A stretch of DNA of 33,974 nt, taken from assembly GCA_020049415.1 (NCBI GenBank), contig JAIFKV010000105.1, forward strand, positions 1 through 33,974. Direction: 5' to 3'. A program made the position numbers and the translations under genes. Origin of the DNA: Betaproteobacteria bacterium (GTDB lineage: Bacteria > Pseudomonadota > Gammaproteobacteria > Burkholderiales > Thiobacillaceae). Below, piece after piece: positions 7,811 through 30,280 of the stretch. Every line of letters starts with the position of its first letter. Positions within the stretch are counted from its first letter, which is position 1. The notes beneath the pieces were generated by a model. The model worked only from the letters and a program-made list of their open reading frames with translations. It searched no databases and was not told the origin of the DNA.

Positions 7811-7878
7811 CGCCTTACCCCGGTGAGGGACGAATAGCCGAATCCGGGCGCTTGCGCGGTGTGGCTGTCATGGCGCGC

Positions 7879-10800: not shown

Positions 10801-13479
10801 CGCCTCGGCGGCGGGTTTTCCGGCCAGGTCAACCACCTGGAAAAGCAGGCTGTGGGCCTTGCCGGCGCGCACCCAACGGGCGTTGTTCAGTCCTACAACC
10901 ACCTTCGCCGGCCACCACGCGGCGGTGCGGCTGATGGTCTGGATTTCTCCATTCGGGTCGGCGTATTCCAGTTCCAGGCGCAGGTTTTGCGGCGTTTCAA
11001 GCGCCGGCAAGGGGCTGATGCGCGCACGTTGGGTGCCGTTGGCGTCGAGTTTCAGATCAACCTGGGGCAGGCTGATCGGCCCGCCTTCTTCGCTGCCGTC
11101 TTCAGCATCGTTGCGCCGCGCGAAGTCGAATTCCGGGTAATTCGCAAACTCGACTTGTTGTCGCGGTTCCAGTTGCGCGCGCAGCTTGACCGGCAGATTC
11201 TTTGCGCCGCCGCCATTCAGGTAGCGCACGGCGAGGTCGAACTCGGCCGCCGATGCTGCCACCAGCGCGCTGCTGACCGGGTCGATGTCGGCGCGCATCA
11301 GCGGTACGCGGAAATCGCTGACGCTGAATGCGCCGGAGTCGAGTCCTTCCAGGTTTTCAAGTTGTTCGGTCGAGCCGTCCGCTTGGATCGCTTTGTTCAG
11401 CAGGCGCAGGCTGTAATCGCCGCGTTTTGCGCTGTCGGGGATTTTCCAATGGTTTGCCGCCGCGCCGTTTTTCCAGGTCAAGGGCAAAAACCAGCGCTGG
11501 TTGCTGGCGTTATGCTCGATCAGCAAGGTCGGCGGGGATTTTGCCGGATAGCTCAAGCCGGTTTCGCGTTTGTCGCGCAAGATATGTTGCATGTGCAGCG
11601 TCTCGCCGGGGCGGAACAAAGTGCGGTCGAGCACGCTGCGGGCGATGCGGTTGTCTTCGCTCCAATCTTGCGGCAGTCCGAATCGCCAGGTTTCGATGCC
11701 CTCGTCCCAGTCCGAGCGGGCGAAGCTGAGATCGTCATCAAGGCGGGCGCTGACAAACAGCGGACAGTTGTATTCCACCGTGCGCGGGTCGGGCAGATTC
11801 TTCGGCAGCAACGCCATGCCTTGTTTGTCGGTGCTCGTTTCGGCCAGCAGGCGGCCTTTGCAATCGCGCACTGCAATGCGCGCGCCGGCGGCCGGGGCGC
11901 CTGAATCCAGCCGGGTCACCCAGGCCAGCGACGATGCCGATCCCCATTTGAAATGCACCGCCAGGTTGGTGACCAGGGCGCTGCTGCGCACATACATCGG
12001 GCGGTCTTCGCCCAGCAACGATTTGCCCAGGCGTTGGCTTTCGGCTTCCACAATATAGAAGCCGGGTTTTTCCAACGGCAGGCCGACGACTTCGAATGCC
12101 TGCGCGCCATTCGGCTTGGGCAGTTCGCGTTGGTGGACTTCGGCGATTTCGGCATTGAGCAATTGCGCCTTGCGCTGATCCGGATAACGTTTGTTTTCCT
12201 CGTCGTATTCCGGGTTGTTGAATTGATGCAGCCGGCTTTGCCATGTCTGGATGGCGGCGTCGTCGGTCAGTCGCAGCCAGCGAACCTTGGCGCTGCTGGC
12301 GTCAGCGGCTTCCAGATTGCGCAGGGTGATCGGCAGCAAGCCGCCCGCCGCGCGTTCGATGATGCCGAAATCGCCGGCAAACTTGACCAGTGGCGGCATT
12401 TCGCCAACCTGGAAGCGTAGCGGGAAGCGCGCTGCATTGACCAGCGCACGGCCTTTGTCGTCCAGCAGTGGGTCTGGCAATGTCAGGCTCAGGCTGGCAT
12501 TGGCGGTGAAGGGGCCTTTGAAGACGATGCTGTCGTCCATTGCGGCCGGTGTTTCGCTTTGCGTCTGCGCGTAGGTTTTGCCTTTGGCATCTTGCAGGCT
12601 GATGCGGTCGAGCAATGCACGCGCCACCGGGGCGGTGAAATCGAGTCGGATCGGGGTCAGCGGCAAACAGCCCGCCTTGGCGTTTTCTCTTTGGCAGCGC
12701 ATCCGCGCGACGAAATGGTCGCGCACGCTGAACTCCAGGCGCTGATCCGATGGGTTGCTTTGTCCGGACGGCATTGCGATGCCGGCGCCCCAGACCAGCG
12801 CGACTTTGGCATTGGCGGGCAAGGTGCGCTGGCAGCGCAGCACTTCCAGTTGCGGGTCGGCTTGCGCTTGTTTTTCGTTCCAGTTGCCGCCCAACTCATC
12901 GAGCAGGTCTTTCAATTGCCGCAGTGTCCGCGCCCGTTCGGCGCCACTCAGACGCTGGATGGGAATCTGTTCATGGATGCCTTGCGCTTCGCAACGCGCA
13001 TACGTCGCCAGGCTGTCGGCGCGCGCCGCGCCATTTAGCCGCAGTACGAAGATCTGATCTTCATCCAGCGTTGCGCCAGGCTGCGGCAAGCTGGCGAGAA
13101 TGCGCGGGCCAATCACGCTGAACAGGTAGTCGGCTTCGGCGACCACTTTCTCGCCAGCCAGCGTGGTGAGCTCGGGTTTGAGTTGGAAGCGACACGTCAC
13201 GCCGGCTATCGGGGTCGACAGGTCGTACACCCACGTTCGCTCATCGGTCCAATAACCGTTGCCGGCGATGCCGCAATCAATGTTGAATGGCGCTGGCGCA
13301 TCAGATTGGCCCAGCGCGGTCATCGGCGCGGAGAAACGCGCTTGCGCTTGACGGATATCGAGCTGTTCGCCCTGTGGGCTGAAGCTTTCAACGCTGGCTG
13401 CGCCGGCCTGAGCGGCAACCAGAGCGGTAATGGCGACGGCGATGATGAGCGAGAAAAAGAAGCTGGTCTGGCGATGCAT
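7879..13479 (-). CDS. yfhM: Bacterial alpha-2-macroglobulin (periplasmic protease trap)
   Basis: This 1866-residue protein is thought to trap invading proteases in the periplasm and protect the envelope while the linked PBP1C repairs peptidoglycan. The thioester motif CLEQ lies at Cys1415-Gln1418 (YPYGCLEQ), so covalent trapping is possible. The macroglobulin-like beta domains fill the N-terminal two thirds. A probable bait region near 1190 contains GGGGGK before LPTRELFDTLLFW. Residues 1-28 form a signal peptide ending QAGAA, but there is no lipobox cysteine, unlike the well-known lipoprotein form in enterobacteria. It is therefore predicted soluble or held in another way. It is longer than the E. 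coli homologue. The ATG is preceded by GGGAGA. It is the first gene of a yfhM-pbpC transcript. Confidence 0.93.
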   Translation of the reverse strand: MHRQTSFFFSLIIAVAITALVAAQAGAASVESFSPQGEQLDIRQAQARFSAPMTALGQSDAPAPFNIDCGIAGNGYWTDERTWVYDLSTPIAGVTCRFQLKPELTTLAGEKVVAEADYLFSVIGPRILASLPQPGATLDEDQIFVLRLNGAARADSLATYARCEAQGIHEQIPIQRLSGAERARTLRQLKDLLDELGGNWNEKQAQADPQLEVLRCQRTLPANAKVALVWGAGIAMPSGQSNPSDQRLEFSVRDHFVARMRCQRENAKAGCLPLTPIRLDFTAPVARALLDRISLQDAKGKTYAQTQSETPAAMDDSIVFKGPFTANASLSLTLPDPLLDDKGRALVNAARFPLRFQVGEMPPLVKFAGDFGIIERAAGGLLPITLRNLEAADASSAKVRWLRLTDDAAIQTWQSRLHQFNNPEYDEENKRYPDQRKAQLLNAEIAEVHQRELPKPNGAQAFEVVGLPLEKPGFYIVEAESQRLGKSLLGEDRPMYVRSSALVTNLAVHFKWGSASSLAWVTRLDSGAPAAGARIAVRDCKGRLLAETSTDKQGMALLPKNLPDPRTVEYNCPLFVSARLDDDLSFARSDWDEGIETWRFGLPQDWSEDNRIARSVLDRTLFRPGETLHMQHILRDKRETGLSYPAKSPPTLLIEHNASNQRWFLPLTWKNGAAANHWKIPDSAKRGDYSLRLLNKAIQADGSTEQLENLEGLDSGAFSVSDFRVPLMRADIDPVSSALVAASAAEFDLAVRYLNGGGAKNLPVKLRAQLEPRQQVEFANYPEFDFARRNDAEDGSEEGGPISLPQVDLKLDANGTQRARISPLPALETPQNLRLELEYADPNGEIQTISRTAAWWPAKVVVGLNNARWVRAGKAHSLLFQVVDLAGKPAAEAPVEAKLSLRQTFSQRVRLTGGFYGYHNESRDTPIAAECSGKTDAKGQFTCQANTAQGGEVMLSARALDSSGRAAITHHSFWVAGQDEWVFEQDNHDRIDLIAEKKLYEPGEIARFQVRMPFREATALVTVEREGILDARVVKLSGKSPVIDLPIKASWAPNIFVSALLVRGRNDDIKPTALVDLGRPSFKLGITGIEIGQRGHRLEVEVKTDKTRYQIREKAIARIKVRTPEGGAPPAGAEVTLAAVDEGLLELASNDSWNLLEAMMAKRGYSMQTFTAQMQVTGKRHFGKKALPAGGGGGKLPTRELFDTLLFWQANVGLDSNGEASVEIPLNDSLTAFRIVAIAAAENRFGTGKTTIQSSQDLQLISGLSPVVRQGDRLQGYFTVRNGSERSMKIEVKASASGLKELPARNVKLAPGESREIVWPVVVPEIDRLDWTLNATEVGGKARDALNAKQTIHAAVPTRVQSASLYRLDQPLELPVATPANSLPNSGELRATLTASLADGQTGLRDYMRRYPYGCLEQKVSQAIATQNRAGWETLTANLPTYLAENGLVNFFPGSGDGSIALTAYVLAIADQAGWNLPLDAQTRMQRALVGYLSGQIELPRNAWENPVVLRLAALEALARAGLATPELVATVKPEPTLWPSSALIDWISMLQKSPKLANRDSQLRTALAALNARFTQTGKRLNFNTEASDDLWWMMTSADTNALRALLALMPETRWKDRLPKLLTGTLARQRDGRWNTTTANAWGILALQRYQQQFEAVKPTGKSYVALGKDNRLIDWKAFPKGATAFLPLGAETSALKLRHEGAGEPYLSLTTLAAVPITAPLQRGYSVKRQLIPIDQKTPGKWRRGDVLRVRLDIDARDDMGWVVVEDPIPAGASILGNGTQRSSAMLTQDERNRGHAWPAWQERLFDSYRAYYEYVPRGRISLEYTVRLNSDGQFQLPPTRVEAMYAPEMFGEAPNAVFEVAP

Positions 13480-15640: not shown

Positions 15641-16078
15641 ATGAACACAAAACGATGCACTGGTTTTACTGTTATTGAATTAATCGTGGCGATCAGCATC
15701 GTCTGCCTGCTGGTCGTCGTTGCGGTGGGGTCTTTTTATGATCACATGTCGCGCAAGTCCAGGGTAGAGGCGCAAAGAGCCTTGATTGAAGCGGCGGAAT
15801 GGCTGCAAAACCAGCATGCCACATCGGGTACTTTTCAGGTGGAACTGCCGGTGAGACAAGTGCCTGGCGACGGCAACGCCGTTTATAGGATCAGATTGGC
15901 GTCGACAGCGGTTGTCGCGACCGACCCGAAAGCGACTTTTCCGGCCACCACCGCATCAACCTATACGTTGCAGGCGGAGCCGCTCGAAGATGATACCTGC
16001 GGCACTTTGTTGCTGGATTCCAATGGACGCCCCGGGGTAGTTGGAAAAGATGCCTTGCTCGCCAAGTGTTGGCGTTGA
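15641..16078 (+). CDS. Type IV pilin-like protein (PilE-type minor pilin)
   Basis: The protein has 145 residues. A short positively charged leader (MNTKRCTG) is cut before FTVIELIVAI, with the required Glu at +5, and the first 25 mature residues form the hydrophobic pilin helix. The C-terminal part has two cysteines (DDTCGTLLLDSNG and LLAKCW) enclosing a D-region loop, as in PilE-like minor pilins. AGGATGAGG precedes the ATG. No pilus assembly genes lie beside it on this strand; birA follows 18 nt later. It could serve the general type IV pilus encoded elsewhere, or the pseudopilus cluster on the other strand 2.5 kb away. Confidence 0.88.
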   Translation: MNTKRCTGFTVIELIVAISIVCLLVVVAVGSFYDHMSRKSRVEAQRALIEAAEWLQNQHATSGTFQVELPVRQVPGDGNAVYRIRLASTAVVATDPKATFPATTASTYTLQAEPLEDDTCGTLLLDSNGRPGVVGKDALLAKCWR

Positions 16079-16096: not shown

Positions 16097-17167
16097 TTGA
16101 GTCAAATTGATTCTGTGAGCGTTTTTCCCACCCAACTGATCTCTGTATTACGACAACTTTCGCCCGATTTTTTCCTTTCCGGCGAACAGATTGCGCAAGT
16201 CCTGGGATGCTCGCGCGCTACCGTCCACAACGCCATTCGCGCCGCGCAGGAGACTGGTTTTTCGGTGCAGGCGGTGCATGGACGTGGTTATCGCTTGACT
16301 GCGCCGGTCAGTTGGCTGGAACTGGAGCGCATTAGTCCGGCGTGTGCGGCGCATGGCATTACCCTGCGTTATCAAGATCAGGTTGTCTCGACCAATACCT
16401 TGATGCTGGAATGGGCGGCGGCTGGCGGAGGCGTCGAGGCTGACCCGACGCCGGGTGGTTTGCCTCAACGCGCGCCGCACCGGGCGTTGGTCAGTGCTGA
16501 ATGGCAGAGCGGCGGACGTGGCCGGCGCGGGCGTGGATGGTTTGCCGGCCTTGGCGGTGGACTGGTTTTTTCTTACCTGTGGCGCTCGGCGCGGCCGGCG
16601 GCGCAACTTTCCGGACTTTCTCTGGCGGTCGGCGTTGCCTTGGTGGAGGGCTTGCGCGGCATCGGCCTGGTCGGCGCGCAGGTCAAATGGCCAAATGATA
16701 TTCAGGTTGCCGGCGCAAAACTGGCGGGGGTGTTGATCGAGTTGGCGAGCGATAAATTCGCCAGCGATGTGTTGGCGCCCAGCACTGCGGTGATTGGCGT
16801 CGGTATCAATATTCTCGGTGGCGAGGCGTTGACTCGGCAGGTTGGTCAGCCGGTGACGGATTTGCAGACGCATCTTGCCGCGCAAGCCAGGCCATTGGAT
16901 CGTAACGATCTGTTGTTGCATCTGGTGAAGCAACTCGATACCGATCTGGCGCGTTTTGAAAGCCATGGCTTTGCGGCGTTTCAAGATCAGTGGCATGCCT
17001 GTCATGCACATCAAGGTCAGCCGGTTTGCCTGCTGAACGGTCTCGGCGAGGCCACTTACGGCGCCGCGCTGGGGGTTGATGCGCAAGGCGCGTTGTTGCT
17101 GCAGACGGCCACCGGCGTGCGCGCCATGCACTCCGGCGAAGTCAGCTTGCGAGCGGTGCAAGCATGA
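16097..17167 (+). CDS. birA: Biotin-protein ligase / biotin operon repressor BirA
   Basis: It joins biotin to the carboxyl carrier protein of acetyl-CoA carboxylase via biotinyl-AMP. Residues about 27-66 form a winged-helix DNA-binding domain (LSGEQIAQVLGCSRATVHNAI), so it probably also represses biotin genes. Catalytic motifs are STN at 98-100, GGRGRRGRGW at 139-148, KWPND at 197-201 and KLAGVLIEL from 208; a C-terminal SH3-like domain ends the protein. A short Gly/Pro-rich insertion (about 110-128) lies between the first two motifs. The start is TTG 16097 or GTG 16115; no ATG is available and neither has a strong ribosome binding site. The stop overlaps coaX by 4 nt (ATGA). Confidence 0.93.
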   Translation: MSQIDSVSVFPTQLISVLRQLSPDFFLSGEQIAQVLGCSRATVHNAIRAAQETGFSVQAVHGRGYRLTAPVSWLELERISPACAAHGITLRYQDQVVSTNTLMLEWAAAGGGVEADPTPGGLPQRAPHRALVSAEWQSGGRGRRGRGWFAGLGGGLVFSYLWRSARPAAQLSGLSLAVGVALVEGLRGIGLVGAQVKWPNDIQVAGAKLAGVLIELASDKFASDVLAPSTAVIGVGINILGGEALTRQVGQPVTDLQTHLAAQARPLDRNDLLLHLVKQLDTDLARFESHGFAAFQDQWHACHAHQGQPVCLLNGLGEATYGAALGVDAQGALLLQTATGVRAMHSGEVSLRAVQA

Positions 17168-17922
17168 GGTTGTTGGTCGATGCCGGTAATACCCGCATCA
17201 AGTGGCGCATTGTCAGTGCCGGTGTGCTTCACGCGAGCGGCGCGACGCAAACCGTTGCGGCAGCGGAACTGGAGCCGGTCTGGCGGTGTTTCCCTTTGAC
17301 CCGCGCCTTGATCAGTTGTGTTGCCGATGAAACGACGCAAACCACGCTGCGGCGGGCGTTTGCCAGCATCGGCGTGACGCCCCGATGGCTGACCCCGGAG
17401 CGCGAAAAATATGGTTTGGTCAATCGCTATGAGCAACCTGAAAAACTGGGTGCGGATCGCTATGCCGCGCTGATTGCCGCCGCTCGCCTGAAGCTGGGAG
17501 ATTGCATCGTGGTCAACGTGGGTACCGCAACCACGGTCGATATGCTGAGTCGAAACGCCGAATTTCTCGGTGGCGTCATTGTCCCCGGGCCTGATTTGAT
17601 GCGGGCGTCTTTGCTGCGTGGCACCGGCCAGGTCGAAAACCGGATGCGGTCATCGACGGTGAGTTTGCCTGGCGTCGGGATCGCCGCCTGGCCGCGCGAT
17701 ACCGATACGGCGGTCGAGATGGGAATTGCACTGGCGCAAGCGGGGGTGATCAATGCGCTTTGCGCGCGGATGCCGATTCCCGACGCTAGACCGCCATTAG
17801 TGATTCTGAGCGGCGGCGCGCGCGACAAGGTACGCGATTGGCTGCAGTTGGAGTTGATTGAAATCGAAGATCTGGTTCTGGAAGGATTGGCATGGATCGA
17901 CCTGGATACGGCGGCGTGTTGA
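17164..17922 (+). CDS. coaX: Type III pantothenate kinase
   Basis: The enzyme phosphorylates pantothenate in the first step of coenzyme A synthesis. The 252-residue protein shows the ASKHA-fold motifs: phosphate-binding DAGNTRIKW at 6-14, GADR at 96-99 with catalytic Asp98, and GTATTVD at 120-126, plus a C-terminal LSGGARD segment. The ATG overlaps the birA stop in an ATGA, and the SPOR gene overlaps its end, so the three are translationally coupled. This birA-coaX-SPOR order is common in Betaproteobacteria. Confidence 0.95.
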   Translation: MRLLVDAGNTRIKWRIVSAGVLHASGATQTVAAAELEPVWRCFPLTRALISCVADETTQTTLRRAFASIGVTPRWLTPEREKYGLVNRYEQPEKLGADRYAALIAAARLKLGDCIVVNVGTATTVDMLSRNAEFLGGVIVPGPDLMRASLLRGTGQVENRMRSSTVSLPGVGIAAWPRDTDTAVEMGIALAQAGVINALCARMPIPDARPPLVILSGGARDKVRDWLQLELIEIEDLVLEGLAWIDLDTAAC

Positions 17923-18611
17923 AACTGGTTGGTTTGCTGCTGGCGCTCAATGTGGGCGTATTTGTGGCCGGCATGGCGTTGCAATACGGCACGCCGACGG
18001 CGCCGGAACAAGCGCTTTTCAACGCCGACAAAGTACATCTGCTGGCATCGCAAACACCGTTTGAACGAGAAGTTGTCAGCCCCGCGCAGCCGGCGCCGGC
18101 GGAAATCCAGACCGACCCGGCAACCCCGCCTGACAGTCCGCTCACCGAGGTGAACCGGCGCTGTTTGAGCTGGAGTCAGCTGGCTCCGGATGATCTGCTC
18201 AGCATCGAGTCGTATCTCGCACAAATCGGTATTACCTTCAGCGCTTATCGTATTGAACTCGACAAACCGCTTGGCTGGTGGGTGTTCTTGCCGCCGTTCA
18301 AGGATAAGGCTGCGTTGGATGTGAAAATCGAAGAAGTGCGACGTCTGGGCATCAGTGACATGGCGCCGGTCAGAGGCGGTTCGATGCGTAACGCGCTTTC
18401 TTTGGGGGCTTTTGCCGCGCTCGAGCAAGCCCGCGAACATGCCGCCAGTCTCGCCAGAAAGGGCGTCATGGGGGTGCGCTACGGGCCGCGTCCAGAGTCG
18501 GGTACGGCGCGTTTGATCATCGCCGACTCGATTGCCGAATATGTCTTGCCGAGCCCCGATTCAGCCTGGCCCCAGGGATTAAAGCCGATGCGCTGTGTAT
18601 TGCCGGAGTGA
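17892..18611 (+). CDS. SPOR-domain-like single-pass membrane protein
   Basis: The protein has 239 residues from ATG 17892, which overlaps coaX by 31 nt; GTG 17916 (overlap 7 nt) would place the membrane helix right at the N-terminus and is equally likely. One hydrophobic helix (LKLVGLLLALNVGVFVAGMAL) is followed by a Pro/Ala-rich periplasmic linker and a C-terminal domain (about 115-205) with the WWVFLPPFKDKAALDVKIEEVRRLG pattern of SPOR folds, which bind denuded septal peptidoglycan. A conserved Cys pair (RRC and MRC) flanks this domain. It is the last gene of the birA operon and meets the pseudopilin gene tail to tail with a 6-nt gap. Its exact role is unknown. Confidence 0.8.
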   Translation: MDRPGYGGVLKLVGLLLALNVGVFVAGMALQYGTPTAPEQALFNADKVHLLASQTPFEREVVSPAQPAPAEIQTDPATPPDSPLTEVNRRCLSWSQLAPDDLLSIESYLAQIGITFSAYRIELDKPLGWWVFLPPFKDKAALDVKIEEVRRLGISDMAPVRGGSMRNALSLGAFAALEQAREHAASLARKGVMGVRYGPRPESGTARLIIADSIAEYVLPSPDSAWPQGLKPMRCVLPE

Positions 18612-18617
18612 TGTTGT

Positions 18618-19403
18618 TCAGTCGCCACCCCGGCACAAAGAAGCGGGATCGCATAGCCGGCCACGCAGCCAATCGGCGGAAATGGGCAACACCAAGTCGT
18701 CGAATTCGCCACTGGCGTGGTCCGCCGGGCGTGGCGGACGCATGATGAAACGGCTGTCCTGGTTGGCGTTTTCAATTTCATCCGCCGAAGTTGGCGCCAG
18801 ATTGCGTTTGTTGTTGAGGTTGCTGGCGCCGAAACCATTGCGGCCGTAAGAAATAATCACTGCGGCGGAGGTCATGGGTTGAGCGCAAATTCTGTCCGGG
18901 CAAATCTGCGGCAGATTTTCTCCGTCTGCCGCAGTGGACAGCGAATCGGTTAACGGCGCGCGATCGGCCGGTAAGGTCCAGTCGTTGGCAACGGCATAAC
19001 CGAGATGGTTGCCCCAGGCATCGCCTTCGGCCAGGCCGAGTGTTTTCCAGGGCAGATTTCCCGCCAGTGCGGCGCATTTTCCATCTTCAAGTCGGTCTTC
19101 CAGTCCGTCGCTGGCGTCGTCATCGGTTTTTTTCGAGGGAGCGCCCGGCCAGTCGGGGCAGGGCAGCGGGCCAGCCTGGTCGGCTTGGCGCAGGGCGTAG
19201 CCAACCAGCGCCAGATGGGCCGCCTCCAGGGCGCGTCGGGTTTCTCCAATTTGTCGTTCGGCGATTTGTTGGCTGAGCGGGGTGAGTACGCCCCCCAGCA
19301 GCAGGGTGATGATGAACAGGACGATCGCCAGTTCGATCAGGGTGAAGCCCCGCATCGGCTGGCGGGCGGCGGCCTTGCCGACCCAATAGCATTCAGTTTC
19401 CAT
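18618..19403 (-). CDS. Long pseudopilin (type II secretion/pilus-like) of the 18.6-27.6 kb cluster
   Basis: From ATG 19403 the protein has 261 residues. A 19-residue leader ending PMRG is cut before FTLIELAIVLF, with Glu at +5 and a long hydrophobic helix after it. The globular part has LPCPDWPG, GNLPWKTLGL, GDAWGNHLGYAV and a C-terminal FDDLVLPIS segment, a pattern shared with a group of uncharacterised large prepilin-like proteins. At least six cysteines suggest disulfides in the periplasm. The start overlaps the upstream gene by 11 nt. The open frame extends further upstream, but a leader of that length would be unusual. It is the only pilin-like gene of this cluster, so it is either the main subunit or the tip. 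Confidence 0.85.
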   Translation of the reverse strand: METECYWVGKAAARQPMRGFTLIELAIVLFIITLLLGGVLTPLSQQIAERQIGETRRALEAAHLALVGYALRQADQAGPLPCPDWPGAPSKKTDDDASDGLEDRLEDGKCAALAGNLPWKTLGLAEGDAWGNHLGYAVANDWTLPADRAPLTDSLSTAADGENLPQICPDRICAQPMTSAAVIISYGRNGFGASNLNNKRNLAPTSADEIENANQDSRFIMRPPRPADHASGEFDDLVLPISADWLRGRLCDPASLCRGGD

Positions 19404-19947
19404 GTTGACTGAGCGTCCACCAGTTGAGACGACAGGTAGCCTGCTTGCCGATGCCGTCTCGGTCGAGCTCCAGCGCGCAGCGTTCAATGGTGAAGCGACC
19501 GCGCGCTTCGGCGCGCAATTGTTCGATCAGCGCGCGGAGTTTTTGCGGGTCGATCGAACTGGCGGTGAATTCCATGTTGCTGACAAACAGGTCGGGCGCG
19601 AGTGGGCTGGATGCTTGCGGCGTCATCCGCCAGGACAGGCTGGCGAGTTGCATTTTGGTCCGGGTTTGCGCCAGCGCGCTAATCCAGCCGACACGATCTT
19701 CTTCGCCGATAAACCCGCTTTCGAGAATATGCCGATACAGCTTTGATGCGTTGCGATCTTCGATCAGTCGGGCCGGCGCTTCGCGAACCGCGCGGGCGGA
19801 TTCATCGGCGCTTGATTTTTCGGCAATCAGGCGCGCTTCGGATTTCAGGCGGGAATTCAACGAAACCAGAAACAGACCGCTTCCCAGCAGCAATGAGGCT
19901 AGCAATAGTGTGATGGGGAAACGCAGTTTCTGTAGCAGATGTTTCAT
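19393..19947 (-). CDS. PilO/GspM/MshJ-like inner-membrane assembly protein
   Basis: The protein has 184 residues: one N-terminal membrane helix (about 10-29, RFPITLLLASLLLGSGLFLVSL), a short coiled-coil-prone stretch (30-65) and a periplasmic domain ending in RLNWWTLSQ. Size, topology and position directly after a PilM/PilN-like gene fit the PilO or GspM role of bracing the inner-membrane platform. The sequence itself is poorly conserved, so the call rests mostly on context. It overlaps its upstream neighbour by 4 nt. Confidence 0.65.
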   Translation of the reverse strand: MKHLLQKLRFPITLLLASLLLGSGLFLVSLNSRLKSEARLIAEKSSADESARAVREAPARLIEDRNASKLYRHILESGFIGEEDRVGWISALAQTRTKMQLASLSWRMTPQASSPLAPDLFVSNMEFTASSIDPQKLRALIEQLRAEARGRFTIERCALELDRDGIGKQATCRLNWWTLSQHGN

Positions 19948-21449
19948 CGCTGTGTCTCCGCAACTTCAATCGAGAAACGTGCGTTGACATGGCTATTGCC
20001 GAATTCGCCTTCCAGGTCGCTGGTTGTCGATGCGTTCAACGGCCAGCGCTTGACGCTGATGATCCGATTGGCGGGAAGATCGCCGCGCAGTTGATCGGCG
20101 AGGTCTTGCACGCGCCGGTGAGCCGCGCTGAAATCGTTGTCGAAAGAGATCACCTCGCCTTCAATGGCGAGAATTACTGCCTCTCCGGTCACCCATTCCA
20201 TCCGCTGAATATGCAGGTTGCCTATTTTGTTGCTGATATTCAGGATGCGCTGAAACATCGGTACCGGGTCTTGCTCCAGCGCGGCAATGCGCTGCCAGAT
20301 TTGTACTGTTCTGATGCGTTGCGCGAGGGCTGTTGCGCCGCCGACTTCGGCCAGTAGATCCGCTTCCCTGGTCTGGTTTTGCTGCCTCGCAGCATGCTCG
20401 ATGTCGGCATTGTGCTGAAGTCGCCAGCTATCCAGCAACAGCAGGCTGGAAGCCAATGCCGCCAGGCCGAACCAGGCTGCGGCGACAAACAACAGGCCGC
20501 GCTTCAGCCAGTGAAAACGGGTGATGGCGTGTTGTTCGCGCGTCATTAGATTGGCGCTGCGCGGTGCATCCGGCAGTAATTTCAGATACAGCGCGTCGGA
20601 TGACTCCGCCAGCAACGTCGGCGGCAGCTTGAGTTTCTCCAGGAGTTCTCCACGCAGAATGCTCTCGCACAAAAAGCCGGCCGATTCGGGCAAAAAGGCA
20701 TGCAGCTCCGCCAAGGTGTTGAGCGGGTCAAGCAGCAAGGTGCGCAAGGGCTCCGAGCGCGCCAGGAGTCGTTGGCCGACCAACGATTGGCGGGTGCGTT
20801 CGATTTCCTCGGCGTAGCTTTCCAGCGGATTTTCGTATTCGCTGCTATCGACTGGCGCCAGTCGCGAGAAACGCAATTCGCCATCTTCCAGATAGGTCAG
20901 GCGCAGGCCGCCGGTTTGCTCGGATACCAGCAACAAGCGGCTTTGGGTGAGTCCGAATTTTTTCGCCAACGGAATCGCCAGCGCCGGCAATAACCAGATG
21001 CCGGCCAGGTGGGAGCCGCGCATGTGCAGGATGTCCAGCCATGGCCGCACGATTTCGGTATTGGTCAGCCCCATCATCAGATAGCGGTCTTGCCGGCCCG
21101 GACCGGCCACCGGACTCTGCCGCAAGGCGGCGCGATAAACGGAATGGTGGATCAATTGGCGCAATCGTCGATCGGTCATTTCGCGCCGGTCGGCGCCATG
21201 CGCGCGTGGCAGGATATCTTGCCGATAAATCTCGTCTACCGTGTCGACCGCGATGGCAACCGGCTTGTCGGGATGCTTCAGCAACATCGCATTGAAATAT
21301 TCCCAACCTTCCTCGTCGCTGGGAAGCGAGTGAACTTCCTTCAACGCGGCGCGATGATACAAAGCACTGCTCGCTCCCGCCGCGGAAAGATAGAGCAGGA
21401 TGAAGTCGTTCAAGGTCAGTGCATTGAAGGCTGGCGCTTTGAAATTCAT
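19944..21449 (-). CDS. PilM-PilN / GspL-like fusion protein
   Basis: The 501-residue protein has a cytoplasmic actin-like half (about 10-300), a membrane helix at about 318-340 and a periplasmic PilN-like half. The latter includes VPMFQRILNISNKIGNLHIQRMEW, the usual PilN/MshI pattern for comparing pilin-assembly domains. GspL of type II secretion has the same overall topology. It would link the ATPase on the cytoplasmic side to PilO-like and pilin subunits in the periplasm. Both ends overlap neighbours by 4 nt, showing tight coupling. Actin-fold nucleotide motifs are not obvious, so the N-terminal half may no longer bind ATP. Confidence 0.7.
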   Translation of the reverse strand: MNFKAPAFNALTLNDFILLYLSAAGASSALYHRAALKEVHSLPSDEEGWEYFNAMLLKHPDKPVAIAVDTVDEIYRQDILPRAHGADRREMTDRRLRQLIHHSVYRAALRQSPVAGPGRQDRYLMMGLTNTEIVRPWLDILHMRGSHLAGIWLLPALAIPLAKKFGLTQSRLLLVSEQTGGLRLTYLEDGELRFSRLAPVDSSEYENPLESYAEEIERTRQSLVGQRLLARSEPLRTLLLDPLNTLAELHAFLPESAGFLCESILRGELLEKLKLPPTLLAESSDALYLKLLPDAPRSANLMTREQHAITRFHWLKRGLLFVAAAWFGLAALASSLLLLDSWRLQHNADIEHAARQQNQTREADLLAEVGGATALAQRIRTVQIWQRIAALEQDPVPMFQRILNISNKIGNLHIQRMEWVTGEAVILAIEGEVISFDNDFSAAHRRVQDLADQLRGDLPANRIISVKRWPLNASTTSDLEGEFGNSHVNARFSIEVAETQR

Positions 21450-22648
21450 AGCGGCAATTCTCCAATGATCTGGTAGATGGGCAAGAACACCGCCAACATC
21501 AACACCCCGAGCAGCAGGCCAAGTAGCGCGGCCAACCCGGGTTCGAGCAATTTCAGCGCGCGGGTGATGGTTTCGCGGGAGTCTCGCTCAAAGAACCAGG
21601 CTACGTTTTCGAATGATTCCGCCAAAGCGCCGTTGGCTTCGCCGGTATGCACCATGCGCAATACCAACGGCGGTAACAGTTCTTGCTGGCGCAGACTGTT
21701 GGCGACGCCTTCGCCCGCGGCGATGTGCTGCGCGGTGGCAATCAATTTGAGTTGGATGACGCGGTTGCCGGCGCTTTCGGCGCAAGCTTGCAGGGCGTCG
21801 AGCAAACCGACGCCTGATTGCAGCAACAGTGCGAGCAGGCCGGAAACTCGCGCCAGAATGTGTTTGCGCAAGGTGGGGCCGAGAATGGGTAATTTGAGCC
21901 AGACTGCATCCATGCGGTTGGCAAATTTGGGTGAATGCCGCAGCACCAGAAAAAACCCCAGACCGGCGAACAAGAGCAATGGCAGCATCCAGAATATATG
22001 CGTGCGCGCCAGTTCGGAGGCGATGATCAAGCCGCGTGTGGCCGCTGGCATCGGCATGTTCAGGCTGTTTACCAGCAATGCCAACTTGGGCGTGAGATAA
22101 AACAGCAATACTCCGGCGGCGGCAAATACCGCGCTGGCGGCGAGGCTGGGATAAATCAGCAGGCGGGTGAATTCGGTTTGCAGTTCATCTTGCTGCTTGA
22201 GCCGGGCTTCGAGTCGGGCGAAGACAGTTTCCATCTGGTCACTGGTTTCGGCGGCATGCACCAGCGCGACAAAAACCCGATCGAATACATCGGGATGCGC
22301 TGACAGCGACTCCGACAGCAACTTGCCACCTTCCAGATCGTCCGCCACCAACGCGAGCAGGTCGCGAAAACGAGAATTTTCTGTGCTGGCGATGAGGTCT
22401 TTCAGTCCTTCCAGCAGCGGTGCGTCGGCGCGGGCGATCTGTTGTATATGAAAGCAGAAGCTGATCAGGTCGCGTCGACTGGCATGCCAGGACGAGAATA
22501 AGCCGCGTCTATTGGCCGCGCGCGCCCGAATCAGCGTCAACCCCATGCGGCGCAAGCGCAGATCGAGATCGATATCGTTGATGGCGGCGAGTTCGCCCTG
22601 GATGCGATGGCCATCGACATTAGCGGCGCGGTAGCGAAAACGGGGCAT
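21446..22648 (-). CDS. GspF/PilC-family platform protein
   Basis: The protein has 400 residues with the RYRAANVDGHRIQGEL start, two repeated cytoplasmic T2SSF domains (about 60-180 and 260-385) and three membrane segments near 170-190, 215-235 and 375-395. This is the standard inner-membrane platform that the GspE-type ATPase turns to push pilin subunits out. Length is typical. It overlaps the PilM-PilN-like gene by 4 nt and lies 26 nt after the ATPase gene. Confidence 0.92.
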   Translation of the reverse strand: MPRFRYRAANVDGHRIQGELAAINDIDLDLRLRRMGLTLIRARAANRRGLFSSWHASRRDLISFCFHIQQIARADAPLLEGLKDLIASTENSRFRDLLALVADDLEGGKLLSESLSAHPDVFDRVFVALVHAAETSDQMETVFARLEARLKQQDELQTEFTRLLIYPSLAASAVFAAAGVLLFYLTPKLALLVNSLNMPMPAATRGLIIASELARTHIFWMLPLLLFAGLGFFLVLRHSPKFANRMDAVWLKLPILGPTLRKHILARVSGLLALLLQSGVGLLDALQACAESAGNRVIQLKLIATAQHIAAGEGVANSLRQQELLPPLVLRMVHTGEANGALAESFENVAWFFERDSRETITRALKLLEPGLAALLGLLLGVLMLAVFLPIYQIIGELPL

Positions 22649-22674: not shown

Positions 22675-24399
22675 TCAGCGTCTGGACAGGTTGACCACCC
22701 GGCTGATTTCAGCCAGCGAGGTGTCGCCACAACGGACGCGTTCAAGGCCGTCTTCAGCCAGGTTGCGCCAGCCGCGTTGTTCAGCCAGGCTGGCCAATTC
22801 GCGCGGTGTTGCGCCGCGCAAAACGGCTTCATCCAGGCTGGCATCCATCAGCAGCAGTTCCATCAACGGCAGGCGGCCGCGATAGCCCTTGTAGGCGCAA
22901 TGGGCGCAACCTTTGGCTCGATAAATATGCTCCGGGGCGTTGTTGTCGAGCAAACGCCGTTCCGCTTCATCCGGGCTGTAGGCTTCTTTGCAATGCGGGC
23001 ACAAGCGGCGCACCAGACGTTGCGCTACAACCGCGACGATGTTGCCGGCAAGAATAGCCGGGCTGATGCCCATATCCTCCAGGCGCGGGAATACGCCCAA
23101 CGCGGAATGCGTATGCAAGGTGGTGAACACCAGATGGCCGGTCATGGCGGCGCGGAATGCCATTTCGGCGGCTTCTTTGTCGCGTACCTCGCCGACCAGA
23201 ACGATGTCCGGATCTTGCCGCATGATGGCGCGCACGCCAGCGGCGAAATCAACCTTGGAGAGTTCGGTCAATGAAGTCTGGCGGATCAGAGGTTGAGGAT
23301 ATTCGACCGGGTCTTCCAGGGTCATGATGTTGACCTCTTCCCGGTTCAGATGCGCCAGCAGCGAATACAGCGTGGTGGTCTTGCCCGAGCCGGTGGGGCC
23401 GGTAACGATGACCAGTCCTTCAGGGCGGGAAATCGCACCGAGCAAGCGCGCCAGGGTTTCTTCCGGCAAGCCCATGCGGGCGAGTGGAATGATCGACTTT
23501 TCCCGGTCGAGAATGCGCAGCACGATGTTCTCGCCATGCAATGTCGGCATGCTGGAGACGCGAAAATCGATGCCGCGACCATATAGGGTCAGCGAAAGAC
23601 GGCCATCTTGCGGCGCGCGCGATTCAGCGATGTTGAGGCCGGAGATGACTTTCAGGCGAACCGAAATGGCCGGCCAGTATTTCCGGTGCAGGCTGCGCAT
23701 GGCTTCGAGGACGCCATCGATTCGGTAGCGCACGCGGAGAAAAGCCGCCTCTGGTTCGAAGTGCACGTCCGAAGCGCCGCGTTTGACCGCTTCCGCCAGC
23801 ATGGCATTGACCAGCCGCACAATCGGCTGGGTGTATTCAGTTCCCATCTGCAGGCTGCTGTTCGCGCCGACATTGCCGCCGGTATGCAGACTGCTCCAAT
23901 CGACTTCGCCCGTTTCGATCTCTTTCAGGATGCCATCGACGGATAAATCGAAACCGTAGAACTTGTCGAGATGTTCGAGGATCTGCGCTTCCGCCGCCAA
24001 TACCGGACGGATGTCGTAACGGCCTTCGAGGTGGGCGCGCAGTTGGTCGAGCGCGACCAGGTTGAACAGGTCCGGCACCGCGACGGTAAGCGTGCGTTCA
24101 TCGGTATCCGCCGCCAGCGGTAACACGTGATGCCGACGCGCCAAGTGCTCCGGGGTCAGTGCGATGGCTTCCGGGTCGGCAATGACATGCGCCAGATCAA
24201 TACTGGTTTCGCCCGCGTTTTGCGCCAGCACATCTCGTAACACGCTGTCATTGATGAAGCCCAGACTGATCAGTTGACGCCCCAGCGGAAGACCACTGGC
24301 GCTCTGCTCCATCAGCGCGATGCGTAGTTGGTCGGGGCTGATCAGCCCTTGTCCGGCGAGCCATTCGCCTAGTTTTGGCGGTTCGGGAAAGTGGGCCAT
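22675..24399 (-). CDS. GspE/PilB/MshE-type assembly ATPase with MshEN-like N-terminus
   Basis: The 574-residue ATPase powers pseudopilus extension. Walker A GPTGSGKT is at 334-341, the Asp box LEDPVE at 361-366, Walker B LVGEVRD at 401-407 and the His box near 422-430. The Cys4 zinc motif of GspE is present (C467xxC470 and C498xxC501). Residues 9-60 hold two tandem motifs of the type LGxxLxxxGxIxxxxLxxAL (LGEWLAGQGLISPDQLRIAL, then LGRQLISLGFINDSVL). This matches the MshEN c-di-GMP-binding pattern, although the leading Arg of the first motif is Lys here. c-di-GMP control is therefore probable but not certain. Confidence 0.93.
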   Translation of the reverse strand: MAHFPEPPKLGEWLAGQGLISPDQLRIALMEQSASGLPLGRQLISLGFINDSVLRDVLAQNAGETSIDLAHVIADPEAIALTPEHLARRHHVLPLAADTDERTLTVAVPDLFNLVALDQLRAHLEGRYDIRPVLAAEAQILEHLDKFYGFDLSVDGILKEIETGEVDWSSLHTGGNVGANSSLQMGTEYTQPIVRLVNAMLAEAVKRGASDVHFEPEAAFLRVRYRIDGVLEAMRSLHRKYWPAISVRLKVISGLNIAESRAPQDGRLSLTLYGRGIDFRVSSMPTLHGENIVLRILDREKSIIPLARMGLPEETLARLLGAISRPEGLVIVTGPTGSGKTTTLYSLLAHLNREEVNIMTLEDPVEYPQPLIRQTSLTELSKVDFAAGVRAIMRQDPDIVLVGEVRDKEAAEMAFRAAMTGHLVFTTLHTHSALGVFPRLEDMGISPAILAGNIVAVVAQRLVRRLCPHCKEAYSPDEAERRLLDNNAPEHIYRAKGCAHCAYKGYRGRLPLMELLLMDASLDEAVLRGATPRELASLAEQRGWRNLAEDGLERVRCGDTSLAEISRVVNLSRR

Positions 24400-24457: not shown

Positions 24458-25888
24458 TTAATCCTGCTGGTAGGTCTGCATGCGACTGTAAAGCGTGGTT
24501 CGGTTGACGCCTAATATTTTGGCGGCTTGCGAGAGGTTGCCATGTGTCATCGCCAGCGCGGCTTCGACATAGCTGCGTTCCCATTGCCGGATAACCTGGT
24601 CAAGGTTGAAGTTGTGCAAGTTGCGCAGGTGCGCCTTGGCATATTCCTGCAACGCCAAACCGTCAGTAGGTAACGGGATGCTGGAGGGGGAGACTACGTC
24701 GAGGTCGAATTCGTCTTCCAGTTCGCGCGCGTTGATGCTGCGGCCGGCGTACTTGGTGGTCAGACGGATCACGATATTACGGAGTTCGCGCACGTTGCCG
24801 GGAAAATGATAGTCCTCCCAAAGGCGACGCGCGTCGGGCGAGAAAACAAATGGCTCGGCGTTGACCTGGCGCGCAAAGTGGCTGCGGAAGTGCTCCAGCA
24901 GTGAGAGTTTGTCTTCTATCTGATCACGCAGCGGCGGCACATGTACCGAAAACACCGAGAGTCGATGGTAGAGGTCGCCGCGGAAACGTCCTTCGCGTAC
25001 TTCTTTGCGCAAATCGCGGTTGGTGGCGGCGACGATGCGGGCGTTGGAGAAGCGGCTACCGGTTTCGCCAACCCGTTGGAATTCGCCGTTTTCCAGTACG
25101 CGCAGGAGTTTGGCTTGGAGTTCCAACGGAAGCTCGCCGATTTCATCGAGAAACAAAGTGCCTTCGCGGGCATCTTCGAAATATCCGGTCTGCGCTTGCG
25201 TAGCCCCGGTAAAGGCGCCCTTGGCGTAGCCAAAAAGGGTGGGTTCAACCAGGGTGGGTGAAATGGCGGCGCAATTGAGCGCCATATAGGGTTTGTTATG
25301 CCGTTTCGACCATTGATGCAGGCTCTTGGCGACCAATTCCTTGCCGCTGCCGGATTCGCCTTCAATCAGGACGGGAAACGGCGCATCTGCATATAACTTG
25401 ATCTGATTGCGCAACCGGTCAATGGCGAAGCTGGCGCCGACGATGCCACTTGATTCAAGTGATGCGGGCAGGGCCTGAAGCGCGGGTTCTTCCTGATTGA
25501 AGCGCAGGGCGGAGAACAGGGCTTCCTTGATGGTCTGCGGGTCGGCCGGTTTGCCGATGAAATCGATTGCACCCAGCGCCCGGGCATGGCGCGCATTGGC
25601 TTCGTCGTTCTGGCCGGAAAGAACCAGGATGCGGATTTTGTTGGAGTAGTTGAGCAGGTCGGTAATCAGGGCGAAGCCTTCGTCCGGCTTGTGCTGTGAT
25701 GGTGGCAGCCCGAGATCGACCAGTGCAAGCGGCGGCGCGGTATCAAGTTGCGTCAACAGGCTTTTGACCTGTTGCCGCGATTCCGCCACATAGACTTCGA
25801 AATCGTTCGATAAAACGAAGTGCAGCGTGTCGGTGATGAGCGGGTCATCGTCAACGATGAGCAGGGCCGGTTTTGAGTCAGATTTCAC
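24458..25888 (-). CDS. NtrC-family sigma-54-dependent response regulator
   Basis: The protein has 476 residues. A receiver domain has the acidic pair D13-D14, phospho-acceptor D58 in LALVDLGLPP and K113. The AAA+ domain has Walker A GESGSGKE (177-184), the sigma-54-contacting GAFTGA loop (224-229) and LFLDEI. A Fis-type helix-turn-helix ends the protein (NLSQAAKILGVNRTTLYSRM). All parts look functional. The receiver resembles that of PrsR-like regulators. No sensor kinase is adjacent. The start is GTG at 25888 with GGAGA upstream. It probably controls this cluster and perhaps exopolysaccharide or pilus genes elsewhere; the target is inferred from location only. Confidence 0.93.
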   Translation of the reverse strand: MKSDSKPALLIVDDDPLITDTLHFVLSNDFEVYVAESRQQVKSLLTQLDTAPPLALVDLGLPPSQHKPDEGFALITDLLNYSNKIRILVLSGQNDEANARHARALGAIDFIGKPADPQTIKEALFSALRFNQEEPALQALPASLESSGIVGASFAIDRLRNQIKLYADAPFPVLIEGESGSGKELVAKSLHQWSKRHNKPYMALNCAAISPTLVEPTLFGYAKGAFTGATQAQTGYFEDAREGTLFLDEIGELPLELQAKLLRVLENGEFQRVGETGSRFSNARIVAATNRDLRKEVREGRFRGDLYHRLSVFSVHVPPLRDQIEDKLSLLEHFRSHFARQVNAEPFVFSPDARRLWEDYHFPGNVRELRNIVIRLTTKYAGRSINARELEDEFDLDVVSPSSIPLPTDGLALQEYAKAHLRNLHNFNLDQVIRQWERSYVEAALAMTHGNLSQAAKILGVNRTTLYSRMQTYQQD

Positions 25889-25974: not shown

Positions 25975-27636
25975 TCAGGCTGACTGACTATAAGTTGTCA
26001 TCAGCCAGCCGTCCCCCTTGTCACGCACTGATTCGAGCCGGATATGGTGCACCTCGGTTGGGGAGCGCATCTTGAATTGCCGGCCGTGGGCATAACGTGC
26101 GCTTTCCATGATGATCAGTTTGCTATCTTGCAGATTCGGAAAAATCAGCGCCTGGTTGGTGGAATTTTCCGCCAGGTTGTTATGTTCGACGGAATAGCTC
26201 AGACCGGCGGAGATTTCATGCGATTCGAGTTGAACCAGCAGCGGTTCGCTGCTCAGAGTCTGGACGCCGATCTTGCGCATCTCGTCCGGCATCCGCGTGA
26301 TGCGCCGAATAATGCCGATTTGCCAGGCATGGGTGGGATCAAGACGAATCGCAAGCAGTTTGCCGACCTTGACCCATTCGCTTTCTTCGCCTCTCAGCAT
26401 GACGCCCAGTCCGGAGTTGCTTCGATCAAGCAGCGGCCATTGTTCGGCGCTGAGGTCTCGGTTGCCCTGAGAACGCTGGTTTGCCGCCGATTTGGTACGC
26501 TCGGTGACAAATCCATAGAGTTTGATATCGAGTATCTCTTCCATGCTGAGTTGCTGGCTGGGGCTGTTGCCGCTGCTGATCAGCAGTTCGGTCTCCAAGC
26601 GTTTGCAGATTGCGCCGAGATCGCGCACCACCTCGCAGCGGCCATCGGTAGGCGCGCGATTGTCGACACGACGTTCACGCTCACTGGTCGCTGCCCATTC
26701 GTTGGCGACATGACTGAGCAGGTCGTAGCCGTCCGGCAGGCGAAACTCTTCACCCAACCCCAGGCTTGGAGGCAGCGCACCCGATTTCAACGCAAACTCG
26801 GTGCGCTTGATGTGTTCTTGCAGGGGTTCGATATCGATGTAACGGAAACTGGATTGGATTTCGACGGTCGGGCGAATGCGCTTCAGGCCATGACCTCTTT
26901 CCTGGTCGATGTAAAAGAAATGACGATCGGAGTCGAAAGTGTTTTCCAGTTGCGACTTGTCTGCCCAGTTATCCAGCCAGCTATCGACCATTTCTATTTG
27001 TTTCGGGGTCATGCTGCCGGCGCCTAATGGCGACAGCAGTAGCGCCTGGACGTACTCTCTCATGCAACTCGAAGGCAGCGAGTCTGAGGCGTAGAGCTTC
27101 ATGCTGGTATTCTGGAAACCGTCAAATTCAGCGATGCGATAAAGATTGTGCAGGCGCTGCCAGAGTTTTTCTTCGACCTTTTCATAGCGGAAATAGCGCC
27201 ATTTGAAGATGTCGGCAAAGCCGCGCAGCGCGCGCGCGGTGATTTGCGGTATTGCCGGTTGAATTTTGCTGCCACCGGGGTTGCCGACAAAATCCATCAG
27301 GAAGCTGTGATAGCCGCGAGTGACTTCCCAGTAGAAGGCGTGAATGGCGGTCCACAGGCGTGATTCAATGACCTTCGACATGCGCGGGTTGCGCAGGTAC
27401 TGCATGCACAACGAGTACTGCATTTCGCGCGCCTGATTATCCAGGTGCATGAGAACCTGCAGTCGATCCTTGGACATCGGCAGGCCGGCATGGTTGAACT
27501 GAATCAGGCTCTGCACCACCTGTTCCTGTGCCGTGTAGATGTCACCTGCGGGGAGCTCCTGCATCCAGCGCGAAACCGTTTTCAGGTCGCTAAGCGGATC
27601 CTCTTCGCTCTTCTTGCGTTTGAAGAACCCGAACAT
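25975..27636 (-). CDS. Large cytoplasmic protein with PilZ-like C-terminal region
   Basis: The protein has 553 residues with no signal peptide or membrane helix. The first 350 residues are helical and I recognise no named domain. From about 385 to 550 the sequence looks beta-rich and holds LLDRSNSGLGVML, the D/NxSxxG half of a PilZ c-di-GMP site. A clear RxxxR partner is not seen (TERTKSAANQR is the nearest), so binding is uncertain. An ATG with GAGGA upstream lies 25 nt after alaS. It stands at the head of the pseudopilus cluster, and with the MshEN-like ATPase it suggests c-di-GMP control. Function is otherwise unknown. Confidence 0.7.
   Translation of the reverse strand: MFGFFKRKKSEEDPLSDLKTVSRWMQELPAGDIYTAQEQVVQSLIQFNHAGLPMSKDRLQVLMHLDNQAREMQYSLCMQYLRNPRMSKVIESRLWTAIHAFYWEVTRGYHSFLMDFVGNPGGSKIQPAIPQITARALRGFADIFKWRYFRYEKVEEKLWQRLHNLYRIAEFDGFQNTSMKLYASDSLPSSCMREYVQALLLSPLGAGSMTPKQIEMVDSWLDNWADKSQLENTFDSDRHFFYIDQERGHGLKRIRPTVEIQSSFRYIDIEPLQEHIKRTEFALKSGALPPSLGLGEEFRLPDGYDLLSHVANEWAATSERERRVDNRAPTDGRCEVVRDLGAICKRLETELLISSGNSPSQQLSMEEILDIKLYGFVTERTKSAANQRSQGNRDLSAEQWPLLDRSNSGLGVMLRGEESEWVKVGKLLAIRLDPTHAWQIGIIRRITRMPDEMRKIGVQTLSSEPLLVQLESHEISAGLSYSVEHNNLAENSTNQALIFPNLQDSKLIIMESARYAHGRQFKMRSPTEVHHIRLESVRDKGDGWLMTTYSQSA

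Positions 27637-27661: not shown

Positions 27662-30280
<2,619 letters not shown>

Follow-up and report, generated by a model that had tools for sequence, protein, structure and literature searches.

A predicted FimW-like PilZ protein with a complete but split c-di-GMP motif, encoded after alaS beside an MSHA-like pilus cluster

The gene after alaS and its neighbors

Within the window, the whole stretch of 33,974 nucleotides that was analyzed, a gene for a 553-residue protein lies between alaS and a gene for a sigma-54 response regulator, with a set of pilus genes beyond the regulator.

27662..30280, (-): alaS, 25 nt upstream of the FimW-like gene
25975..27636, (-): FimW-like gene, 553 aa, with a helical N-terminal part, a split PilZ domain and a C-terminal beta domain (ORF list, alignments, model, family profile)
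24458..25888, (-): sigma-54 response regulator with REC, AAA+ with GAFTGA and Fis-type HTH (Pfam, NCBIfam)
22675..24399, (-): GspE/MshE-like pilus motor with an MshEN c-di-GMP domain (PF05157, 1.3e-17; NF053729, 54.8 bits, cut-off 38)
21446..22648, (-): GspF/MshG-like platform protein (PF00482; GspF match under the equivalog cut-off)
19944..21449, (-): 501-aa pilus-cluster protein, conserved in position, no Pfam or NCBIfam family over cut-off
19393..19947, (-): 184-aa pilus-cluster protein, conserved in position, no Pfam or NCBIfam family over cut-off
18618..19487, (-): pseudopilin with an N-methylation motif (PF07963, 1.6e-06)

The reading frame, its length, its coordinates and its place between alaS and the regulator are as given in the original prediction. 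A search of genome contigs found 24 loci with relatives, and 23 of them together with the window make up the 24 rows of alignment A1, from which the truncated L024 was omitted. The A1 rows are 55-81% identical to the window protein and keep its start region, which confirms the gene and its start. No Pfam or NCBIfam family matches the whole 553-residue protein over cut-off. The N-terminal part is the best-conserved portion in the close relatives of A1, and W159 is present in 130 of 132 rows of the wider family described below. This part had been said to match nothing, which holds for Pfam, NCBIfam and PDB sequences but not for the FimW-like family, to whose N-terminal part it is homologous (hhalign). 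Designed helical proteins and 14-3-3, offered by VIA-align as kin of this part (Z up to 9.4), were set aside because, according to the tool, helical bundles reach such Z scores without kinship.

The 25-nt gap suggests that alaS and the FimW-like gene are co-transcribed. A scan for sigma-54 promoters gave 16 sites against a chance mean of 23.6, fewer than expected, and a scan for sigma-70 promoters and terminators gave none above chance. ORFs 326 (17460-18440) and 337 (16148-17161) were rejected as neighbors, being shadows of plus-strand coaX/SPOR and birA. Also in the window are a ComP-like minor pilin (15641-16078, plus strand; ComP_DUS, 6.4e-09), apart from the pilus cluster, and a bacterial alpha-2-macroglobulin adjoining a PBP1C-type transglycosylase/transpeptidase (5702-13479, minus strand).

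We take the neighboring machine, from its genes, to be MSHA-like, since orthologous loci L082 and L084 have MshM- and MshL-like genes and the motors carry the MshE c-di-GMP motif. Both loci encode MshM-, MshL- and TPR-like proteins together with GspE (Pfam matched all four L082 genes and the L084 GspE). Like the window GspE, that of L082 has the MshE c-di-GMP motif over cut-off; the MshL-like secretin near the L082 ortholog scored 247.7 bits against a cut-off of 250.2.

The PilZ barrel, its two motifs and the insertion

The following parts of the 553-residue protein were distinguished.

26761..27588, (-): mostly helical N-terminal part, about residues 17-292 (model helices, conservation)
26248..26679, (-): PilZ barrel, residues 320-463 (VIA-align of two predicted models to PilZ chains)
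26656..26670, (-): RxxxR motif, residues 323-327, RVDNR (invariant in A1; register on Alg44)
26449..26616, (-): helical insertion between PilZ strands 1 and 2, about residues 341-396 (alignments, models, bridging test)
26410..26427, (-): D/NxSxxG motif, residues 404-409, DRSNSG (ORF translation, alignments)
25981..26157, (-): C-terminal beta domain, residues 494-552 (model strands; fold not assigned)

The whole protein was modeled with AlphaFold2 (mean pLDDT 75, pTM 0.54), and residues 300-553 were modeled separately (pLDDT 74.8, pTM 0.65, with pLDDT below 50 at residues 312-322, just before RxxxR). In VIA-align, where the tool grades Z scores of 8-9 as middling and the weight lies in the agreement among rows, the whole model matched PA0012 (Z 9.2, rmsd 3.4, 82 aligned), Alg44 (Z 8.5, 3.9, 87), YcgR (Z 8.3, 2.9, 79) and MrkH (Z 8.3, 2.6, 83). 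With the C-terminal model the first 19 rows were all PilZ-containing chains (Z 9.4-7.7), including PP4397 (Z 9.4, rmsd 2.5, 78 aligned) and PA0012 (Z 8.8, 2.4, 82). BcsA, MrkH, MotI and VCA0042 are among the VIA-align rows that we presume to contain PilZ, which their titles do not say. In Foldseek the C-terminal model matched c-di-GMP-bound VCA0042 at E 7.2e-4, with a query TM-score no higher than 0.25, and the best E for the whole model was 1.6e-3. The models, of middling confidence, predict that the window protein contains a PilZ barrel. The comparison with PilZ and YcgR folds, proposed as a check on the original prediction, did not yield a fold lacking the barrel and supports a PilZ-type protein.

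That prediction had recognized DRSNSG at residues 404-409, which is indeed present and kept in 23 of 24 close rows, but had described the PilZ motif as half-intact, with no clear RxxxR. RVDNR is present at residues 323-327, and the three arginines of R322-R323-VDN-R327 are all invariant across the 24 rows of A1. An insertion of about 55 residues, placed between strands 1 and 2 of PilZ, puts the second R of RxxxR 77 residues ahead of D404. The same genome encodes four Pfam PilZ proteins, in three of which the second R lies 23, 25 and 30 residues from the D/N; the spacing pattern did not fit the fourth (L027). In the AlphaFold2 model a strand at residues 328-338 is followed by helices between 340 and 391 and by a strand at 398-405 leading into D404-R-S-N-S-G409. 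As read from the alignments, both motifs are complete and parted by the insertion, and the half-intact motif was a misreading. The aligned ranges start with residue 321 on Alg44 residue 15 and with 324 on 18, which puts R323 and R327 on R17 and R21 of Alg44, an indicative register based on range ends alone. Alg44 residues R17, R21, D44 and S46 are named in passages of a review (PMC12564702).

The close group, window included, has 24 rows, and 23 of them carry both motifs intact. The exception is L021 (9001-10539), which is missing about 40 residues including D/NxSxxG, through natural loss or an assembly error. An alignment of 132 family rows, which includes L021 and in which L091 and L092 duplicate L017 and L018, has both motifs intact in 113. 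Of these rows, 131 have R at position 327, 123 have R at 323 and 129 have D or N at 404, while the S of position 406 is kept in 122 and the G of 409 in 131. The insertion spans 54 residues in the window protein and 53-54 in its group; outside this group it varies from 9 to 102, and 65 class-level rows have a median of 79. Within it, LDIKLYGFVTxRT at residues 369-381 is invariant in A1.

When the insertion was bridged in silico, Pfam PilZ was the sole match in four of five proteins, in each case from profile position 1. The gathering cut-off of this family (PF07238) is 22.5 bits, and the bridged window protein (E 0.0076, 17.0 bits) falls under it. Bridged L005 gave E 0.026 and 15.3 bits. Scores for L017 went from 17.2 bits (0.0067) for the intact stretch to 24.4 bits (3.8e-05) after bridging, and those for L008 from 23.5 (7.1e-05) to 33.8 bits (4.4e-08); the intact matches of these two begin only at profile position 20-22. 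For the window protein, L005 and a paralog from the same genome, the intact stretches gave no PilZ match, L005 having just one hit, unrelated, at 0.062; the paralog stayed without a match even after bridging. PDB sequence searches with A1, with A2 (the C-terminal alignment), with A3 (an alignment of 23 distant members) and with a single member returned nothing convincing, neither PilZ nor any other relative.

A FimW-like family and its link to fimX

To see how far the family extends, we used profiles from both alignments. The A1 profile matched 48 of 61 related genomes, the genome of the window counted, and 29 of 274 sampled class genomes. With the A3 profile the family was found in 136 of the 274. 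The two alignments match each other with probability 100 across 518 columns in hhalign, and the A3 profile finds the window protein at 4.3e-72 (hmmsearch). Judged by sequence, the window protein is homologous over its full length to a family linked to fimX. Profile libraries largely pass it over: none of 13 full-length members scanned is over a Pfam cut-off and none of 10 over an NCBIfam cut-off. One stretch of L008 alone passes PilZ, narrowly (23.5 against 22.5 bits). For ten distant members the best PilZ matches in Pfam were 0.019 (L122) and 0.065 (L093), both under cut-off, and NCBIfam gave nothing relevant for nine.

We examined the neighbors of 40 loci hand-picked from well-scoring A3-profile hits, and the rates apply to such members. 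Of these loci, 27 have a FimX-like match downstream of the family gene, 27 have EpmB on its upstream side and 24 have both. Two of the FimX-like matches (L169 and L172) are partial, the EpmB count excludes a hit in L146 with 23% identity, and three of the 13 loci without FimX (L156, L158 and L173) have a contig end where it would be expected. Among 20 class loci picked from A1 hits, four (L122, L130, L135 and L136) have a FimX-like neighbor, and Pfam confirmed EAL and GGDEF in all four neighbors. An Acinetobacter baumannii locus with the family gene and a FimX-like gene lies on a record of 3.7 Mb that is deposited as a plasmid. Three A. baumannii "plasmids" in PLSDB (NZ_CP077849.1, NZ_CP064203.1 and NZ_CP104448.1; 3.7-4.1 Mb) are chromosome-like in size. 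Several genomes have tandem pairs of family genes (L103, L105, L117, L123, L129 and L153).

We call the family FimW-like because its gene is linked to fimX, as FimW is to FimX in Pseudomonas aeruginosa. The name is given by linkage and homology, the identity coming through the co-encoding of FimX and FimW and not through the sequence of FimW itself, which we take to be PA4958. FimX is PA4959 in the relevant passages of PMC7148300. According to the accessible text of a 2024 review (PMC11656802), P. aeruginosa FimW is encoded with FimX, binds c-di-GMP, gathers at the poles upon surface contact and is needed for optimal twitching, and its exact function is unknown. In one study, as excerpted, a fimW deletion left twitching as in the wild type (PMC12288467). 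Parts of two further papers describe c-di-GMP as leading to FimW dimerization and recruitment (PMC10212136) and list FimW as a PilZ-domain protein (PMC12564702, a review).

Our tree was built by a quick method, with an arbitrary root, from 120 of the 132 members; the 12 omitted are near-copies, the partial L022, L021 with its missing motif, and L091 and L092 as repeats of L017 and L018. In this tree, branches with SH-aLRT 100 separate the alaS-linked from the fimX-linked genes. The genome of the window also encodes a member on the fimX side (L116). These placements indicate that the window gene represents a second branch of the family, separate from FimW proper. No EAL or GGDEF match, and so no FimX by the window gene, was found among the window ORFs scanned. 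A 691-aa frame elsewhere in the genome (C15), near a contig end and with a degenerate GGDEF, might be a FimX candidate.

Role in pilus assembly and comparison with known systems

We consider it likely that the window gene encodes a cytoplasmic c-di-GMP receptor of a FimW-like family, with a complete but split PilZ motif, and that this receptor promotes type IV pilus assembly. We infer that the window protein binds c-di-GMP. At rising c-di-GMP levels, the bound nucleotide would connect the RxxxR arm with the DxSxxG strand of the split PilZ domain, and the insertion and the N-terminal helical part would then shift. This putative conformational switch would lead to dimerization or to docking at a pilus assembly site, through which assembly would be promoted. 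A role for the insertion in oligomerization is reasonable because helices inserted at the same place in Xanthomonas XCC6012 build a tetramer. The presumed pilus target in its own genome is most likely the MSHA-like machine next door, which is probably not the only one. Signal and machine would both be available, as this genome (3.7 Mb, 84% complete) has 78 GGDEF matches and a PilB over cut-off. Those 78 matches amount to a heavy c-di-GMP signaling load.

A narrower form of this explanation, in which the protein works only with the neighboring sigma-54 regulator and the MSHA-like cluster, we regard as rather unlikely. In the close loci the regulator is next to the gene in 23 of 24 (it is absent in L024) and GspE is present in 20; of the other four, L015 has a contig end, L020 a remnant, and L018 and L024 no GspE. 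L024, which has lost the regulator and the pilus genes, matches only the first 258 residues of the FimW-like gene, consistent with dependence on the cluster. So is one genome (G033) in which the ortholog (L085) is not beside alaS and a second family member (L115) adjoins MshM- and MshL-like genes. Against it, L018 has lost the pilus genes from the locus and retains an intact FimW-like gene and regulator. We also surveyed 13 genomes, the window's own included, that were chosen for holding an ortholog, some of them incomplete drafts. An ortholog of the MSHA-type GspE is found in seven (at least 57% identity) and is missing in six, and the regulator has an ortholog in eight (at least 55% identity) and is missing in five. 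The proposed role in pilus regulation is likely to stand, whereas a regulator dedicated to the pseudopilus cluster, as first suggested, is doubtful on these counts and that of L018. The link to pili is broad and the link to the neighboring cluster local.

It is less probable still that the protein is a degenerate PilZ scaffold, which has lost c-di-GMP binding and makes protein contacts only, like PilZ itself and XCC6012. PilZ itself does not bind c-di-GMP, per the portion of the review consulted (PMC11656802), and XCC6012 has its insertion at the same place without RxxxR, as the excerpted report gives it (PMC3131395). The better conservation of the N-terminal part than of the PilZ part in close relatives would also fit, as would the 19 of 132 family rows that deviate in a motif, among them L021 with its second motif lost. 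Such a scaffold is hard to reconcile with the retention of all five motif residues in 23 of 24 close rows against a largely variable C-terminal half. In A2, which has 23 rows and a 254-residue query and omits L021 for its missing second motif, 46 of 254 columns are invariant and R323, R327, D404, S406 and G409 are all among them. With invariant columns placed at random, all five would be among them with a probability of about 2e-4, a value made smaller by the omission of L021.

A function tied to alaS, in translation or with AlaRS, and an incidental pilus neighborhood are very improbable: alaS is directly upstream in 23 of 24 close loci (L022 begins within the gene) and in 8 of 13 among L080-L092 (L091 and L092 repeat L017 and L018), but distant relatives adjoin a SpoIIAA-like, fimV-like or fimX-like gene instead. 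Linkage to alaS only, which had been named as the neighborhood that would speak against a pilus regulator, is what the more distant L080, L081 and L083 have, with neither regulator nor pilus genes, but not the close loci with their regulator and GspE. The SpoIIAA-like gene adjoins the family gene in L086 (10095-10463), L087 (9470-9829) and L088 (9811-10197), which are from three bacterial families; the assignment is by Pfam for L086 and L088 and by sequence similarity for L087. The fimV-like neighbor is found in L089 and L104, two relatives from the same taxonomic order, the L104 match being under the Pfam cut-off, and it speaks for the pilus reading.

The preferred reading, a FimW-like c-di-GMP receptor that promotes pilus assembly, was also compared with the distribution of PilB, which is over cut-off in about 190 of the 274 genomes. 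PilB is found in 117 of 136 family-positive and 73 of 138 family-negative genomes, which are not independent of one another (p 2e-9 for all 274, 0.03 for those of at least 2.0 Mb and 0.12 for those of at least 2.5 Mb). We do not rely on this genome-wide tie, which weakens once small genomes are left out.

The gene is real and well conserved and was misread as half broken. Its family is wide (136 of 274 class genomes), often found beside fimX and largely unnamed in profile libraries. The complete but split motif shows which residues to target by mutation, and in the alaS-linked branch proteins for such tests are encoded next to a pilus motor that has its own c-di-GMP motif. A bolder proposal, possible but held tentatively, is that c-di-GMP receptors of this kind form a class-wide family that profiles largely miss because a variable insertion splits PilZ, that the insertion is a ligand-gated latch for oligomerization or docking, and that the alaS-linked branch represents a second receptor of FimW type, adapted to MSHA-like pili. 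If true, c-di-GMP would act on one pilus machine at two points, the receptor and the motor.

Several known systems resemble parts of the window protein. As far as the excerpted report describes it, XCC6012 (the Xanthomonas tetrameric PilZ) has an insertion of two long helices, 57 residues in all, between strands 1 and 2 that builds the tetramer, and has only SxxG in place of complete RxxxR and D/NxSxxG motifs (PMC3131395). XCC6012 (PDB 3RQA/3PH1) shares with the window protein the place of the helical insertion, but is a single PilZ domain without complete motifs. A PDB sequence search found no sequence match between it and the window family, and the structure match was weak (3ph1_B, Z 6.4, rmsd 6.8, 121 aligned, C-terminal model). 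YcgR, Alg44, PA0012, VCA0042 and other c-di-GMP PilZ domains are similar in the barrel, as predicted in the window models, and in having both motifs, with the Alg44 register the same by range ends; unlike the window protein, they are without such an insertion. The MSHA system is similar in the MshE-type c-di-GMP motif of the motor adjacent to the window gene and in the MshL-like secretin near the L082 ortholog, whereas none of the window ORFs scanned is an MshL or other secretin. P. aeruginosa FimW, placed by linkage in the fimX-linked family to which the window protein is homologous throughout, is similar also in a PilZ domain with both motifs and in its type IV pilus context. The window gene differs from FimW in following alaS, with no fimX seen nearby, and in its separate branch. 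Compared with the class-level loci, where the insertion has a median of 79 residues, that of the window protein has 54 and contains the invariant LDIKLYGFVTxRT.
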